Shown: positions 7,890 to 16,655 of the stretch, piece after piece
How positions within the stretch are numbered: position 1 is the stretch's first letter
Layout: each line of letters starts with the position of its first letter
Assembly: GCA_021777555.1 (NCBI GenBank)
Contig: JAJYDK010000001.1
Span: 1 to 64,000, forward strand
Source of the DNA: Pseudomonadota bacterium
GTDB lineage: Bacteria > Pseudomonadota > Gammaproteobacteria > Steroidobacterales > Steroidobacteraceae
DNA length: 64,000 nt
Reading direction: 5' to 3'
The notes under the pieces: generated by a model
Seen by the model: only the letters and a program-made list of their open reading frames with translations
Database searches by the model: none
What the model was told of the DNA's origin: nothing
Program-made: the position numbers and the translations under genes

Positions 7890-7964
7890 GCGAACACTAG
7901 ACCGAAGTTTTCATCCGGATCGATTGGGTCTTCGCTGACGCAAGCGCTCATAGAGCGGTGCACG

Positions 7965-8741
7965 GTGGCAATTTCGGAGCTTGGCATGAGGCTCATCGAA
8001 TCCCTCAAGGCGGTAATTCCGGGGGAAGTCAAGGCGCTGGTAATGTCCGGACGAGCCTACTGGCGCAACCGCCGCTCGCCACGAACGGTGTTCTCCGACA
8101 TATACGCTGATAACTTATGGGGTGGCTCCGGGGATGAGCCGTTTTCGGGCGCGGGCTCCCGAGGCATAGCTGCGGTAGCCTATGTGGAGTGCGTTCAGTC
8201 GTTCATTGAGGCGCAATCCATACGGACAGTGGTCGACCTCGGCTGTGGCGACTTCTATATCGGCAAGCAAATCGCACAGGTATGCGAAGGCTATGTCGGT
8301 GTCGATGTCGTGCCGCGGGTTGTTCAGCGCAATGCGGCCCATTTTTCCAATGACCGAGTCCGGTTCACCTGCCTTGATATCGTGAAAGATTGTCTGCCGG
8401 CAGGCGACTTGTGTTTGCTTCGTCAGGTGCTACAGCATCTGTCGAATGTGCAGATCGGCAAGGTGCTGCGCAATGTTGCGCGCTATAGGCAGGTCATCAT
8501 CACAGAGCACTATCCGCCGGACGGTCAGGTTGTCGCGCGTAACGTGGACAAGGTTCCGAGCGCCGACACTCGGCTGTCTGTGGGTTCGGCCGTCTATCTT
8601 GCAGATCCCCCGTTCTCTCTTTCCAATCTTGAACTCCTCCTAGAGTGCCGCCTGCCTGAAAATCCGGACAACACCACTCCCGCGTACAAAGCCGGGGTGA
8701 TTCGAAGCTTTCTCTGGCGGCCTGGGTTCTCCGCGTCGTAA
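7965..8741 (+). CDS. Class I SAM-dependent methyltransferase
   Basis: TVVDLGCGDFYIGKQIAQVCEGYVGVDVV motif I/II, then LLRQVLQHLSNVQIGKVL. Confidence 0.75.
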   Translation: MAISELGMRLIESLKAVIPGEVKALVMSGRAYWRNRRSPRTVFSDIYADNLWGGSGDEPFSGAGSRGIAAVAYVECVQSFIEAQSIRTVVDLGCGDFYIGKQIAQVCEGYVGVDVVPRVVQRNAAHFSNDRVRFTCLDIVKDCLPAGDLCLLRQVLQHLSNVQIGKVLRNVARYRQVIITEHYPPDGQVVARNVDKVPSADTRLSVGSAVYLADPPFSLSNLELLLECRLPENPDNTTPAYKAGVIRSFLWRPGFSAS

Positions 8742-8951
8742 ATGGTCGACGTGCAGTTCATCGTGTCGCTCACGACGTAATCGCGTCGTGGGATGACGTT
8801 GCACATGGCGTTTTCAGCGACTTAAACATGGCCGTCCGCGTACCGCGTCTGAATTCGAATTAGGCAGTCTCTGTGCTGAGATGGCGCCATGCGGTGCGTG
8901 ATGCGCACACTTGTTTCGGAGCCGGTCGTGGCGGGGGCGGTGGGGAAAATG

Positions 8952-9281
8952 ATGGCAGAGACACTTGACAGTCGGGTCGCGACACTGGAATCCGACGTGG
9001 CCAACATCTCGATCAATGTGGCCGACATCAAGCTCGACCTGCGCGAGATGCGCGGGACCCTGGAGAGGAGATTCGAGGCCATCGATCGGAGATTCGCGAC
9101 CTTCTACCAGAAATTCATGAGCTTCGATCGAAAGTTCACGACCTTCGACCAGAAGTTCGATGGCAAGATTGCGACGCTCAATCAGAAGATCGATCACCTG
9201 GCGATCTGGCTGATCTCGACCCTGCTGGGCCTGGGAGCGGCCATCCTCGGAGCCATGGCGGCGGGTTTCCACTGGCTGTGA
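8952..9281 (+). CDS. Small coiled-coil protein with C-terminal transmembrane segment
   Basis: Heptad-like repeats RRFEAIDRRFATFYQKFMSFDRKFTTFDQKFDGK followed by IWLISTLLGLGAAILGAMAAGFHWL. ORF also open from 8889. Confidence 0.6.
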   Translation: MAETLDSRVATLESDVANISINVADIKLDLREMRGTLERRFEAIDRRFATFYQKFMSFDRKFTTFDQKFDGKIATLNQKIDHLAIWLISTLLGLGAAILGAMAAGFHWL

Positions 9282-9519
9282 GCCTGCTCGGGGCGCGCGG
9301 CTGATCGACGAATCGGGATCGGCCGTGGGGCCGGTCCTGTGTCCCGGGGAGGGCGTGCCGGGATGATTCCTTCCGCTCGATAACCCTCAGGCCGGCCGCC
9401 GGGAAGGCGCGCGAGCCGCTCCTTACGCGAATCTCTCCGATTCGTGATGGCGCGCACAGCGCTTCCAGACATTCATTTTACATTAAGCCTTCACCCGGTA
9501 GACTTCGCGCCCTGAACGG

Positions 9520-9560
9520 GGCGCCCGCCGGGCAAGAGCCCGGCACCGGGTGCGGGCGCC
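9520..9560 (+). promoter_or_regulatory. Structured 5' leader (nested stem-loop) upstream of the sugar transferase
   Basis: GGCGCCCGC (9520-9528) complements GCGGGCGCC (9552-9560), with an inner CGGGC-AAGA-GCCCG hairpin. Confidence 0.45.
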
Positions 9561-9601
9561 ATCTTGAGCCGCTTTCGAGGAACCCAGGACAGGGGGGAGT
9601 T

Positions 9602-11011
9602 TTGCGCATCCGCGTTTTCGGACACTACCTTTATGCCTCGATCGCGGTGCTCGCGTTCATCGAGGCCCTGGTGTTCTTCGGGGCGGTGTACGGGGCGGCG
9701 CTGCTGCGCTTCCACGGCTCGCTCAGCTTCAAGGTGGAGGACCCGGGGGACATCGGGGCGCTCTGGCCCCGGGCGGCGCTCTTCAGCGCCATCATGGTGA
9801 CCTGCCTGCTCGCCTTCGGGCTCTACAGCGCCCGCCAGCGGGCGAGGCTCTTTGGCATCGCGATCCGGATCATCCTCTCGGTGCTCATGGCCTTCGCCGT
9901 GGCCTCGGCGCTCTTCTACCTCATTCCCAATCTCTGGATCGGCCGCGGGGTGGTGGGCCTGGCGGCGCTTGGCGCGTTCCTCGGCATGGTGGTCTCCCGG
10001 TCGATCTTCTTCCGGGTGGTGGACGAAGACGTCCTCAAACGCCGTGTATTGATTTATGGGGCGGGACGGTCGGCTGCGACTATTGCGGAGCTGCGCCGCC
10101 GCTCGGACCGCCGGGGCTTTCACGTGGTGGGTTTCGTGCCCGCTCCCGGGGAGGTGCTGGCGGTCGATTCGGGGCGCCTGCTCGAGTCCTCCGGGTCCCT
10201 GGTCGAGCTCTGCGAGCGGCTGGACGTGGCGGAGGTCATCGTGGCCATGGATGACCGCCGCCGGGGCTTCCCGATCTCCGAGCTCCTCAATTGCCGCCTC
10301 GCCGGGGTGGATGTCACCGAGCAGCTCACCTTCCTCGAGCGCGAGACGGGCCGGGTGCGCCTCGACATCCTGAACCCCGCCTGGCTCATCTTCGGGGAGG
10401 GGTTCCGGCGCGATCCGGTGCGCCGGCTCACCTCGCGGGGGCTCGATCTCGCGGCCGCGCTGTGCGTGCTGGCGCTCGCCTGGCCCTTCATGCTGCTCAC
10501 GGCGCTCGCCATCAAGCTGGAGGAGGGGTGGAGGGCGCCGGTGCTCTACCGGCAGCGCCGGGTGGGGCTGCTGGGTGAGTCCTTCGAGCTCTTGAAGTTT
10601 CGCAGCATGCGCGTGGATGCCGAGAAGGACGGCCAGGCGCAGTGGGCGCGCAAGGGCGATCCGCGGGTGACGCGCGTGGGGGCCTTCATCCGCAGGGTGC
10701 GCCTCGATGAGCTGCCGCAGCTCCTCAATGTGTTGCGCGGCCAGATGAGTTTCGTGGGACCCCGCCCCGAGCGTCCGGAGTTCGTCGCCGAGCTCGCCGA
10801 GCGGATCCCGTACTACGTCGAGCGGCACTCGGTGAAGCCGGGGCTTACCGGCTGGGCGCAGCTCTGTTATCCCTACGGGTCATCCGAGCAGGATGCGCTC
10901 GAGAAGCTGCAGTACGACCTGTACTACGTCAAGAACAACACGCTGCTGTTCGACCTCGCGATCCTGGTGCAGACCGCGGAAGTGGTGTTTCTCGGGAAAG
11001 GGGCGCGCTGA
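9602..11011 (+). CDS. Undecaprenyl-phosphate sugar phosphotransferase, TIGR03013/EpsB-type (XrtA/PEP-CTERM-associated family)
   Basis: N-terminal TM helices ([35 protein letters not shown]), C-terminal bacterial sugar transferase domain ([18 protein letters not shown]...[10 protein letters not shown]...[13 protein letters not shown]), C-term FLGKGAR. TTG start preceded by GGGGGAG. Confidence 0.85.
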
Positions 11012-11014
11012 GGG
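10958..11014. repeat. 57-bp direct repeat, copy 1 (3' end of sugar transferase gene)
   Basis: gcgatcctggtgcagaccgcggaagtggtgtttctcgggaaaggggcgcgctgaggg; 55/57 identical to 12474-12530. Confidence 0.95.
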
Positions 11015-11067
11015 TCACAGCAAGGATCCGGGATCGATGCAAGCGCCCCGGACCGTCTGCGCATCCT

Positions 11068-12273
11068 TCAGACGAGAAGCCAGTATGGAATCCAGGCCAT
11101 CGAGGCGGTCCTCGCCACGATCGAATCGCCGCCGTACGCAACCACCACCTTCGATCCCGGGAATTTCTTGAGAAAGGCGCTGGCGCTGCCCAATGTCTTC
11201 GGCGCCGGCTCCCGGCTGAGGGTGCTCACGAAGCCTATCGTGCCCAGGCGCGAGGAGAACGCCAGTGGAACCTCCGCGCCGCCGCGGGTGCGCCACTGAA
11301 ACACCCGGCCCCTGAGCTGCGGCCGGTAGTGAAATTCCTGCCGCAGGTTCGCGTACAATCCACGTGTGAGGTCATCGGCATCCTCCAGAGCCGCCCCTTT
11401 CAGCCAGCTGGCGAGCCCCTGATCCTCCAGGAAGATGCCCGGTCGGCGCTCGCCCACCGCCGGTACCGTCCGGATCAGGAATAGCCCTTCCAGAGCGAAC
11501 AGGATCTTCTTGAGCGTGACCAGCGAGATCTGGCTCGCGCGCGCCGCATCCGCGGCCACAAACGCTCTGCCCTGCATTCTGGCCAGATGCGCAAGCAGGC
11601 TCTTCAGGGGGCCGTAGCCGAGCGTGGTCGCCGAGATCTGGCGCAGATCGCGGTTGAGCAGGGTGTCGAGATGGGCCTCGAAGCGCTGTTCGCGTACATG
11701 GGCGTCGCGAAAGCAGCAGATGCCGGGCAGCCCGCCGCACTCCAGGTAGCGCGCGAAGGCCGCGGCGGACTTGTGGCGGGTCTTGCCGTGCCCAGCGAGA
11801 AGATCCGTCAGCGCCCGCTCGCCGGATGCGTTCAATATCTGCTCGCACACTGGCGGCAGCGGCAGGCTGGCGGACTCGGCGGCCGTGAACGGCAGCAGCT
11901 CGAGCGTCACGATCCGGCCGGTCAGCGATTCCCGGATAGCGGCCCTGCTCGTGAACCGCACCGATCCGGAAAGAATGAATTGTCCGGGAGTGCGATGGGT
12001 GCGCACCCATTCCTTGAGCGCCGGAAAGAGCTCCGGACACAACTGCGCTTCGTCGATGCCGAAGGGCCTCTCTCGTCCGTCAAGAAACAGCTCGGGATCG
12101 GCGCGCGCCTGCTCGAGGTCGTGACGGCGGTCGAAGGTCACATGCGCGCTGCAGGTCGCCGCGAGCTGCGTCGTCTTGCCCACCTGACGCTGCCCGAGAA
12201 TCCCGACGATCGGGCTGTGCGTGAGCGCCTGTGCTATGAGGCTGCCGAGATACCTGGGGCGATCGTGTGGCAC
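11068..12273 (-). CDS. AAA+ ATPase with DUF4143 (ATP-binding protein)
   Basis: GILGQRQVGKTTQLAA Walker A, PFGIDEAQLCPELFPALKEWV, FILSGSVRF, then the DUF4143-type C-terminal half. Confidence 0.8.
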   Translation of the reverse strand: MPHDRPRYLGSLIAQALTHSPIVGILGQRQVGKTTQLAATCSAHVTFDRRHDLEQARADPELFLDGRERPFGIDEAQLCPELFPALKEWVRTHRTPGQFILSGSVRFTSRAAIRESLTGRIVTLELLPFTAAESASLPLPPVCEQILNASGERALTDLLAGHGKTRHKSAAAFARYLECGGLPGICCFRDAHVREQRFEAHLDTLLNRDLRQISATTLGYGPLKSLLAHLARMQGRAFVAADAARASQISLVTLKKILFALEGLFLIRTVPAVGERRPGIFLEDQGLASWLKGAALEDADDLTRGLYANLRQEFHYRPQLRGRVFQWRTRGGAEVPLAFSSRLGTIGFVSTLSREPAPKTLGSASAFLKKFPGSKVVVAYGGDSIVARTASMAWIPYWLLV

Positions 12274-12473
12274 GCCAGGATCTTATCGGCAAGCAGGCCC
12301 TCTGTAAATTCTTAAAGGCTATTCTCAGTAACTGCATATGGCGCGGCAGCCCAAGACCGCGGGCGAGACGGCGCCGATCATCATCGGATTGAAATCGCCG
12401 CCGCGAGGAGACGGAGCCCGGCCGCCAGGGGCTTCGGCAGGGCGCAGGACGCATCGGCCCAGCGGGCTCTGAC

Positions 12474-12530
12474 GCGATCCTGGTGCAAACCGCGGAAGCG
12501 GTGTTTCTCGGGAAAGGGGCGCGCTGAGGG
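12474..12530. repeat. 57-bp direct repeat, copy 2 (orphan duplicate of sugar transferase 3' end)
   Basis: gcgatcctggtgcaaaccgcggaagcggtgtttctcgggaaaggggcgcgctgaggg; two mismatches to copy 1 (one synonymous, one Val to Ala). Confidence 0.95.
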
Positions 12531-12554
12531 CTGCGCGCCCGTGTTGACCCGGTG

Positions 12555-12743
12555 TTACTCGCCGCCGTTGGTGTCCGGCGCGCCCTTGACGCGTGTCTTC
12601 CAGACTTCGAAGGGATCCCAGGCGTTCGAGCGCCGCGGAAGCATCCGTTGCGGGCTCTTGTCCTTGAGCGGATCGTGTGAGGCCTTGCGAGTGGCGGGGC
12701 TTTGAGCTGGCCGGTTGCGTTCAGCTTTCATCGCAGTGTCCAT
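12555..12743 (-). CDS. Possible small hypothetical protein
   Basis: ORF MDTAMKAERNRPAQ...SNAWDPFEVWKTRVKGAPDTNGGE; no family recognised. Confidence 0.3.
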   Translation of the reverse strand: MDTAMKAERNRPAQSPATRKASHDPLKDKSPQRMLPRRSNAWDPFEVWKTRVKGAPDTNGGE

Positions 12744-12969
12744 CCTCCGTCTCGATACCACGTTATGTCCCGGCGGACGCTTGCGCGTCGCCTCCGCACG
12801 CCCGGGACGCATCCTCGGTCCCGTTGCGGGGGACGTGAAGTGTAACTCATTATGTTGTCCCTTCCACCCCTATCTATAGCCGCGTCGTGTGACGGGCGTA
12901 TGACGGCGGCTCGCCCTGTCGCCAGGGCGCGAATTGTCACGCAACCTGTTGTGGATTTGTCATAAGGCA

Positions 12970-13001
12970 CGCAATACCGTGATGGGCATCACGGTATTGC
13001 G
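12970..13001. repeat. Perfect 15-bp inverted repeat with 2-nt centre
   Basis: CGCAATACCGTGATG-GG-CATCACGGTATTGCG. Confidence 0.95.
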
Positions 13002-13057
13002 AGTCCCGGAGGCAGTGTCCACCCGGGGTGGGGCGGCGTCTGTGAACTGCGTCACAC

Positions 13058-13087
13058 TGCGCAGGAACCGCATGCGCAGGAACCGCA
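13058..13087. repeat. Perfect tandem duplication of TGCGCAGGAACCGCA (15 bp x 2)
   Basis: Read directly: tgcgcaggaaccgca|tgcgcaggaaccgca. Confidence 0.95.
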
Positions 13088-13151
13088 GCGCGGCGGCAAC
13101 GAGGGCGGGGCTGGGGCGGGTCCGGGGAGCTCTCGCTCCCCGGAGGTGCGG

Positions 13152-14542
<1,391 letters not shown>

Positions 14543-14546
<4 letters not shown>

Positions 14547-15187
14547 GGTGGTGTCGTCCCGTTGCCGAGTTTGCCCTCGTTCAGCGATTTCTCGATGTTG
14601 GTGATGGCGGCGAGCTTGGCGCGCGCCTCACCGAGTTGTCGCCTGAGCGAGACATTCTGTTGCGCGGCGCTTCGCAGCTGGTGCTCGAGATCCGCCAACT
14701 TCTGAGCGCCGATGACGTGAAGAGTGCGGTTTTCCGTCTCGAGGGTCAATTGTCGCGTTATGAGGACAAGCTCGAGCCGCGCCAGGGTCTGCTCATCGGG
14801 CTTCAGGGCCGGGTGGCCATCGGCGAGCAGGCCGGTGAGGAGAGTCTGTGCCTGCTTCAGGTCCGAGGAGGGCGGATCGGAGGTCGCGAGCAGCAGCGCG
14901 TACTGCAGCGTCTCCCGCGGTCCTGATCGGCCCTGGTAGGCCGACTGCGCGGCATCGAGCATGCCGGCGCGGCCCGCGGCCGAGGCATCGAGGGCCCGGC
15001 CGACGAGCGCGAGGTCCTGCCCGGCGGCCGAGGGTGGGGGCGCGACCTGCGCCGTGTGCGAGGGGCCGGAGAACTGGTGCATCAGCTCGCGGCTCGTCTG
15101 GCAGCCGCTGAGGAGCGCGGCTGCCAGGAGCGCGGCCGCCACGGCCGCCTGTCTCGGGCAAGGGAATATCGGAGTCTTACGCGGCAT
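14543..15187 (-). CDS. QseG/YfhG-like lipoprotein
   Basis: Signal peptide with lipobox LLSGC; coiled-coil C-terminal half; located between glrK-like and glrR-like genes as in enterics. Start set at MPRKTPIFPCPRQ. Confidence 0.65.
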
Positions 15188-16655
15188 GGGCCTGCTTTCC
15201 TTGGGTGGGCGGTTGGTCGCGGATGACGCTGATCGGCATGCGGATGCGGAAATGCGCTCCGGGGTACTCCCCATCGATGATCTGCACGGTGCCGCCGTGC
15301 GCGGTCACGAACTCCATCACCACCGAGAGTCCGATGCCCGTGCCTTTGATCGAGATGCTGTTGGCGGCGCGGCCGGTGTAGAAGGCGTTGAAGACGTGCT
15401 GGCGCTCCTCGGCGGGGATCCCGGGACCGTTGTCGGCCACATCGAGGAGGAGGTGACGGTCCTGCGTGCGGGCGCGAATGTGGATGGTGCCGCCGCGGGG
15501 GGAGTACTTGACGGCGTTCGAGACCAGGTTCTCGAGGATCAGGCGGATCTTGCCGCGGTCGGCCATCAGCGTCACGTCGTCGATCTGCACATCGAGGCGC
15601 ATGCGCTGCGAGAGCACCGTCAGCTGCTGGCTCTCGAGCACCTGTTTCACGAGCGGCCGGAGCCGGAACTCGCTCGCATCGAGGCCGACGGTGGAGGTCT
15701 GCCAGGCGCTGAAGGAGAGCAGGTTCTCGATCATGCGCTGCAGCTGGATGCCGTTGTCGCGCAGGATCGCGGTGACCTCGCGCTGGCTGGCATCGAGCTC
15801 GCCCACCGCGCCATCCATCAGCAGCTCGGTCCCCTCGCGGATGTTGGCGAGCGGGGTTTTGAGCTCATGGGACATGTGGCGCAGGAACCGGTCGCGCTCC
15901 TCGTTGAGATCGATGAGGCGCCGGCGCAGCCACTCGAGCTGTCCCCCCAGGCGCTCGAGGTCGTGGGGACCTGCGACCGTGATCTCCTGGTGCAGGCTCC
16001 CGTGGCCGAGATCGCGGATGGCCCGATCGAGCTGGCGCAGCGGCCGGCCCACCATCAGGGTGAGCATGTAGATGGCGAGGAGTGTCAGCGGCACGAGAAG
16101 CGCGGCCTGCCAGAAGAGGCGCTCGCGCGCGAGGTCGGTGAGGCGCTGGAGCGAGGCGATCTCGGTGTCGATCTGCTCGTTGCTCTGCTGGGCGGTGCGG
16201 TCCACCAGGGCGCCGAGCTGGGCGAAGAGCTTCGAGAAATCCGCGACGTGCGCAGCGGCGATGCCGGGCGGCGTGGTGAGCACGAGGTGGCGGATCTGAG
16301 TCTGGAGCGCGGCGAGCCGGCCGAGCGTCTGGCGCATGTCCTGCGTCGCGTGCGGGAAGAGCTCGTTCCGGGTCGCGGAGAGCGCGTCATCGTGCTGCCG
16401 GTAGAGTGCGAGGAGCTTCGGATCCCCGAGCACGTCGTAGAGGCGCGAGGTGCGCTCCAGGGAATCGATCTCGCTGAAGAGCTTCTGGCTCTCGCGCGCC
16501 GCGGTGACCCCCTCGAGCACGATGTGCTGGCCCTTCGAGGAGAGGGTGCGGATCTGCAGGGCGGCAGTGACGATGGCCACCAACAGCGGCAGCGCGAGGA
16601 GCGCCAACCCGAGAAGCATCAGGCCGCTCAATGACTTGGGGCGGATCCAGCGCAT
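15177..16655 (-). CDS. glrK: Sensor histidine kinase, GlrK/QseE-like
   Basis: Two TM segments, HAMP, FLRHMSHELKTPLANIREGTELL H-box, DNGPGIPAEERQHVFNAFYTG and GTGIGLSVV ATPase motifs. Confidence 0.85.
   Translation of the reverse strand: MRWIRPKSLSGLMLLGLALLALPLLVAIVTAALQIRTLSSKGQHIVLEGVTAARESQKLFSEIDSLERTSRLYDVLGDPKLLALYRQHDDALSATRNELFPHATQDMRQTLGRLAALQTQIRHLVLTTPPGIAAAHVADFSKLFAQLGALVDRTAQQSNEQIDTEIASLQRLTDLARERLFWQAALLVPLTLLAIYMLTLMVGRPLRQLDRAIRDLGHGSLHQEITVAGPHDLERLGGQLEWLRRRLIDLNEERDRFLRHMSHELKTPLANIREGTELLMDGAVGELDASQREVTAILRDNGIQLQRMIENLLSFSAWQTSTVGLDASEFRLRPLVKQVLESQQLTVLSQRMRLDVQIDDVTLMADRGKIRLILENLVSNAVKYSPRGGTIHIRARTQDRHLLLDVADNGPGIPAEERQHVFNAFYTGRAANSISIKGTGIGLSVVMEFVTAHGGTVQIIDGEYPGAHFRIRMPISVIRDQPPTQGKQAHAA

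Follow-up and report, generated by a model that had tools for sequence, protein, structure and literature searches.

The window, a 64,000-nucleotide stretch of a Steroidobacteraceae genome (G000 in what follows), carries an intact sugar transferase gene, the end of which occurs a second time on the far side of a single ATPase gene (Table 1). The two copies form a direct repeat of 58 bp, identical at 56 of the 58 positions, with a within-window BLAST E value of 2.8e-20. The initial annotation had described a 57-bp duplication (55/57 identical); the repeat itself is confirmed, and its left end had been placed one base short. Copy 1 runs 3 bp beyond the transferase stop codon (TGA, 11009-11011). 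The same annotation had placed exactly one gene, a minus-strand ATPase of the DUF4143 type, and no integrase or transposase between the repeats, and this holds: the ATPase is the sole gene of the inter-repeat cassette, in which there is no recombinase gene.

Table 1. Features of the repeat-bounded cassette and its surroundings in the window
Feature	Coordinates	Strand	Evidence or remark
XrtA/PEP-CTERM-type polyprenyl glycosylphosphotransferase (sugar transferase); target gene, intact	9602..11011	+	TIGR03013 E 1.8e-171; Bac_transf E 4e-64
Repeat copy 1	10957..11014	+	Final 55 bp of the transferase gene and the 3 bp behind its stop
Inter-repeat cassette	11015..12472	.	GC 65.8% vs 66.6% for the window
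AAA_14/DUF4143 ATPase, PDC-S01 type, 401 aa	11068..12273	-	AAA_14 E 2.3e-18; PADLOC candidate PDC-S01 E 1.3e-54
Repeat copy 2	12473..12530	+	Displaced duplicate of the target 3' end; both mismatches derived
Hairpin across the copied stop codon, bridging copy 2 and the native flank	12516..12540	+	DNA fold -14.3 kcal/mol, z -2.7
Small convergent ORF, 58 aa (...WDPFEVWKTRVK...), native neighbor of the target gene	12555..12731	-	Similar sequence at the same place in relatives
GlrR-like sigma-54 response regulator, right-side syntenic anchor	13152..14546	-	

Which of the two copies abuts the native sequence downstream? The hairpin GGGGCGCGC-TGAGGGCT-GCGCGCCC is preserved at copy 2 and disrupted at copy 1, where the fold reaches -3.8 kcal/mol as against -14.3 kcal/mol at copy 2; thus, it is copy 2 that adjoins the native flank. 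Downstream of copy 2 lie the small convergent ORF, for which no Pfam match was found (tested with a longer start), and then the GlrR-like regulator, as in relatives.

The ATPase combines a P-loop AAA_14 domain with a DUF4143-type C terminus, the DUF4143 match standing at 22 bits and thus below Pfam's gathering cutoff of 28.1 bits. Because the family is a PADLOC candidate defense system, the protein is probably defense-type cargo, as assigned by family alone. Walker A (GQRQVGKTT) and DEAQ are kept, and the nuclease-like EVD...ExK motif of classical members is gone, both from the window protein (EVP...GFVST) and from its two relatives at 40% identity. The same pattern marks the subfamily made up of the window protein and its homologs at loci L130 and L131, in which the Walker motifs are retained and the EVD...ExK motif of two classical members is lost. 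Since the subfamily is without this motif, we infer that the window ATPase, if active, probably does not cut DNA by means of it.

The genus was sampled at 58 genomes, and the site was scored wherever the junction between transferase and regulator could be read; G036, G072, and G062, in which a contig ends within or close to the transferase, did not count as insertions. The uninterrupted gene end, an empty site of the kind for which the initial annotation had proposed a search, is present in G006, G030, G011, G020 (two contigs), and G023 (contig C20), with a stop-to-stop gap between transferase and regulator of approximately 460 to 480 bp. At the occupied sites, three unrelated cargos are found at one and the same gene end: the ATPase in G000, a two-gene cargo in G003 and G069, and a VapBC-type toxin-antitoxin pair in G004 and G012 (PIN_3 E 8e-11; the antitoxin is named by position and, by eye, by sequence). 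Behind each cargo lies a duplicate of the transferase 3' end, measuring 58 bp in G000, 210 bp in G003 (locus L093; 99.5% identical), 90 bp in G069 (locus L202; 98.9%), and 60 bp in G012 (87%, decayed); the copy in G004 is degenerate and heavily decayed, further than that of G012. These cassettes span 0.7 to 1.9 kb and hold one or two genes with the cargo intact, and no integrase gene is found in those of G003, G069, G004, and G012.

The cargo of G003 and G069, 90% identical between the two, consists of a 143-aa gene and a 454-aa protein, part of which weakly resembles ImmA/IrrE (Peptidase_M78 E 0.0089, short of the cutoff). Among the 40 genomes searched, the 454-aa protein occurs in G003 alone, and it is also present in G069, which lies outside that set. 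Its distant relatives sit on plasmids of Massilia, Rhizobium, Sphingomonas, and Allorhizobium, and this cargo is therefore, judging by its homologs, of a kind that moves horizontally. The transferase 3' end itself gave no phage match, and among plasmids only a distant sugar transferase matched it.

Could copy 2 instead be the remnant of a second, tandem transferase, with the cargo merely lying between paralogs? In G069, a 67-bp stretch before copy 2 resembles an upstream segment of the transferase at approximately 70% and outscores all 1581 genomic control windows; however, its frame differs from that of copy 2, and relatives with an empty site have a single transferase here. In the window, a decayed longer transferase copy looked plausible by eye and failed the genomic control, as 532 of 2031 control sequences match or beat the sequence upstream of copy 2. 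The larger degraded second transferase that the initial annotation had named as a possible source of copy 2 is thus unsupported here, and the tandem reading, largely refuted for the window, is highly improbable overall. The likelihood that chance or an assembly artifact produced the arrangement is smaller still, to the point of being negligible: the assemblies are draft and multi-contig, and nothing further speaks for it, whereas the E value of the repeat and the recurrence of the same architecture with different cargo in independent genomes speak against it.

How many times was this gene end entered? In a tree of the adjacent regulator gene, the sites with the ATPase and the ImmA-like cargo fall in one clade and the VapBC sites in another, with empty clades between them. 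Copy 2 of G012 shares a 3-bp deletion with its own clade, and its nearest sequence is the G004 gene, so this duplication arose within the VapBC clade, apart from that of G000, G003, and G069. This gives a minimum of two independent insertions with duplication, or of three if the ATPase cassette and the ImmA-like one arrived in separate events. For G003 and G069, the dS of the cargo (0.24 to 0.26) lies between the values of the flanking genes (0.17 and 0.33), which fits a single insertion in the common ancestor; alternatively, the same cargo may have been inserted a second time independently. The dN/dS of the cargo (approximately 0.14 and 0.27) indicates purifying selection. The two genomes differ in the left edge of the repeat despite their common cargo, and the repeat copies show 1/90 differences within each genome versus 6/90 between the genomes. 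Copy 2, outside any gene, would be expected to drift yet matches copy 1, so the repeats have become homogenized, for which gene conversion between the copies is the simplest reading; no homogenization is seen in the VapBC clade (G004 and G012). The two cassettes of G003 and G069 look vertically inherited over species-level time, stable rather than mobile.

The att-like architecture proposed in the initial annotation is therefore borne out by the intact gene, the distal copy, the empty sites in relatives, and the other cargo at the site. Its narrower suggestion of a non-autonomous mobile unit built on the ATPase is too specific, given that the ATPase is one of three unrelated cargos and that two cassettes look vertically inherited. 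The other option it offered, a local recombination scar, is too weak a description, since the same scar arose on at least two separate occasions, always with toxin-antitoxin or defense-type cargo. The site, rather than the ATPase, is the special feature.

We posit, as the probable reading, that the convergent gap behind the sugar transferase stop codon serves as a hotspot where small toxin-antitoxin or defense cassettes are inserted, by recombination in trans or by homology. In this model, a cassette would arrive as a circle or a linear piece matching the 3' end of the gene and would be joined there through a single crossover, catalyzed by a tyrosine integrase supplied in trans or resulting from homologous recombination of the host. 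Seen directly at the site are the intact target gene and, beyond each cargo, a copy of its 3' end (approximately 55 to 190 bp of coding sequence plus 1 to 20 bp past the stop). RecA-type gene conversion may afterwards keep the repeat copies alike, such that the cassette could pop out and leave the gene intact. Of the two routes, a trans-acting integrase is the one that the tRNA-end cassettes of the same genus suggest; these parallel, integrase-less cassettes, some of them with DUF4143 genes, count in favor of a hotspot. Against it count several observations: no circular or excised form was observed in what appear to be assembled genomes, no integrase acting on the transferase site was identified, the number of arm-type repeats is zero at all transferase cassettes tested, the variable repeat length (58, 90, and 210 bp) is unusual for one att site, G003 and G069 have unlike left edges with common cargo, and the cassettes appear stable across species divergence. 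It is also conceivable, if distinctly unlikely, that the system is free of recombinases altogether, with toxin-antitoxin and defense genes inserted and held at a core-gene 3' end purely by homology and host RecA, the homogenized repeats allowing loss or exchange without harm to the gene.

The tRNA-end cassettes take several forms. At locus L215 (G020, contig C263, 3841-7413), an intact tRNA-Val(cac) is followed by a Fic cassette, a copy of the tRNA 3' end, a DUF4143 cassette, and another such copy; in G010, tRNA-Leu(caa) is followed by a DUF4143 gene and a 40-bp copy of the tRNA 3' end. At L131 (G036, contig C243, 6515-15860), toxin-antitoxin cassettes are parted by four direct repeats of 200 to 390 bp that hold a tRNA 3' end with CCA. 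The cargo there, named by eye, comprises two PIN-like genes, a DUF4143 gene, and MNT/HEPN-like and DUF433-like genes, the DUF4143 member being 40% identical to that of the window, and the locus has the look of an integrase-free cassette array anchored at a tRNA. By eye, no integrase ORF is seen between the repeats in G020, G010, or G036. Small cassette arrays also occur at L217 (G030, contig C23) and L218 (G026, contig C8), where the repeats are built on GTACCCCCA or TGGCACATTCC and resemble integrase arm sites; arm-type short direct repeats are present only in parts of the L131, L217, and L218 arrays. In G000 itself, tRNA-Leu(caa), the tRNA used in G010, has beside it an array rich in repeats that includes Fic-like genes (L268, contig C72, approximately 7900-16400).

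A survey of 1.48 Mb of that genome returned 31 repeat pairs that pass the filter used for the window repeat. The inspected pairs touching gene 3' ends are paralogs, tRNA-linked arrays, or a decayed island, and none is a second single-gene cassette between copies of a protein-gene 3' end (L113, L134, L149, L259, L265, and L273 were listed only). Two other loci of G000 may be recorded here. A short tandem repeat of approximately 73 bp, with palindromic parts and an N gap inside, lies at L128 (14124-14628; contig C69, approximately 194.1-194.6 kb). Contig C61 (L258, 1-4749) has ends identical over 127 bp and is therefore probably a circular molecule of approximately 4.6 kb, likely a small mobilizable plasmid, with an ORF resembling a MobA/MobL relaxase by eye.

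Could the transferase cassettes be what is left of tyrosine integrase islands that integrated at an att site in the gene 3' end and were later stripped of the integrase and most cargo, so that attL and attR now enclose one gene? Such islands classically leave a 3'-end duplication and a restored gene, 78-bp repeats elsewhere in the genome enclose a broken integrase-like ORF (L222), and tRNA-end cassettes are common in the genus. We nonetheless regard decay as unlikely: the independent cassettes at this end, at least two in number and all of 0.7 to 1.9 kb, have intact cargo and no integrase remnant; arm-type repeats are lacking; and in G003 and G069 both copies bear the host lineage's own sequence. 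That the copies are lineage specific agrees with a further alternative, in which a staggered break or replication event at the stop-codon hairpin was filled in, 55 to 190 bp were duplicated in place, and a stray gene was captured. The duplication does vary in length, and it ends within 1 to 20 bp of the stop on the downstream side, where G000 and G003 have a hairpin close by. However, the hairpin is weak in G030 and G006, lineage-specific identity is equally explained by gene conversion, and the repeated, independent capture of toxin-antitoxin and defense cargo is left unexplained; we consider such a long, variable target-site duplication quite improbable.

Gene 3'-end att sites, tRNA cassettes, and defense hotspots are all already known. 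Integron gene cassettes and pdif modules carry small cargo, often toxin-antitoxin genes, and are mobilized by a recombinase in trans; small size and toxin-antitoxin cargo are common to them and to the transferase cassettes, whereas here the recombination unit is a coding 3' end, and a comparison by eye identified no attC-like or dif-like site at the transferase cassettes. The tRNA-linked arrays (L131, L215, and L216) are alike in their toxin-antitoxin, Fic, and DUF4143 cargo, in the copy of the target 3' end behind each of them, and in that no integrase is seen between the repeats, and differ in having a tRNA as target, several tandem cassettes, and, in some, arm-site-like short direct repeats. 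Genomic islands at gene 3' ends include SGI1-like elements at trmE and the dusA islands (PMC8409611), and islands at tRNA sites may be set beside them. The transferase cassettes share with them insertion at the 3' end, an intact gene, flanking direct repeats, and empty sites in relatives, and differ in lacking integrase and transfer genes, in their size of 0.7 to 1.9 kb with one or two genes, and in having homogenized repeats of up to 210 bp. Core-gene defense hotspots hold variable defense cargo at a conserved chromosomal place (PMC10250203), whereas here a cargo of one or two genes is tied to a duplicated gene end. Among open-license papers, we found no description of a recurrent, recombinase-less hotspot for one- or two-gene toxin-antitoxin or defense cargo at a protein-gene 3' end with homogenized repeats of at most 210 bp.

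If the hotspot reading is true, defense and toxin-antitoxin genes would enter and leave chromosomes as units of one or two genes at the ends of ordinary protein genes, without a recombinase of their own. This would explain isolated "orphan" defense genes beside conserved genes, and scanning for duplicated gene 3' ends would offer a simple route to more such cassettes.
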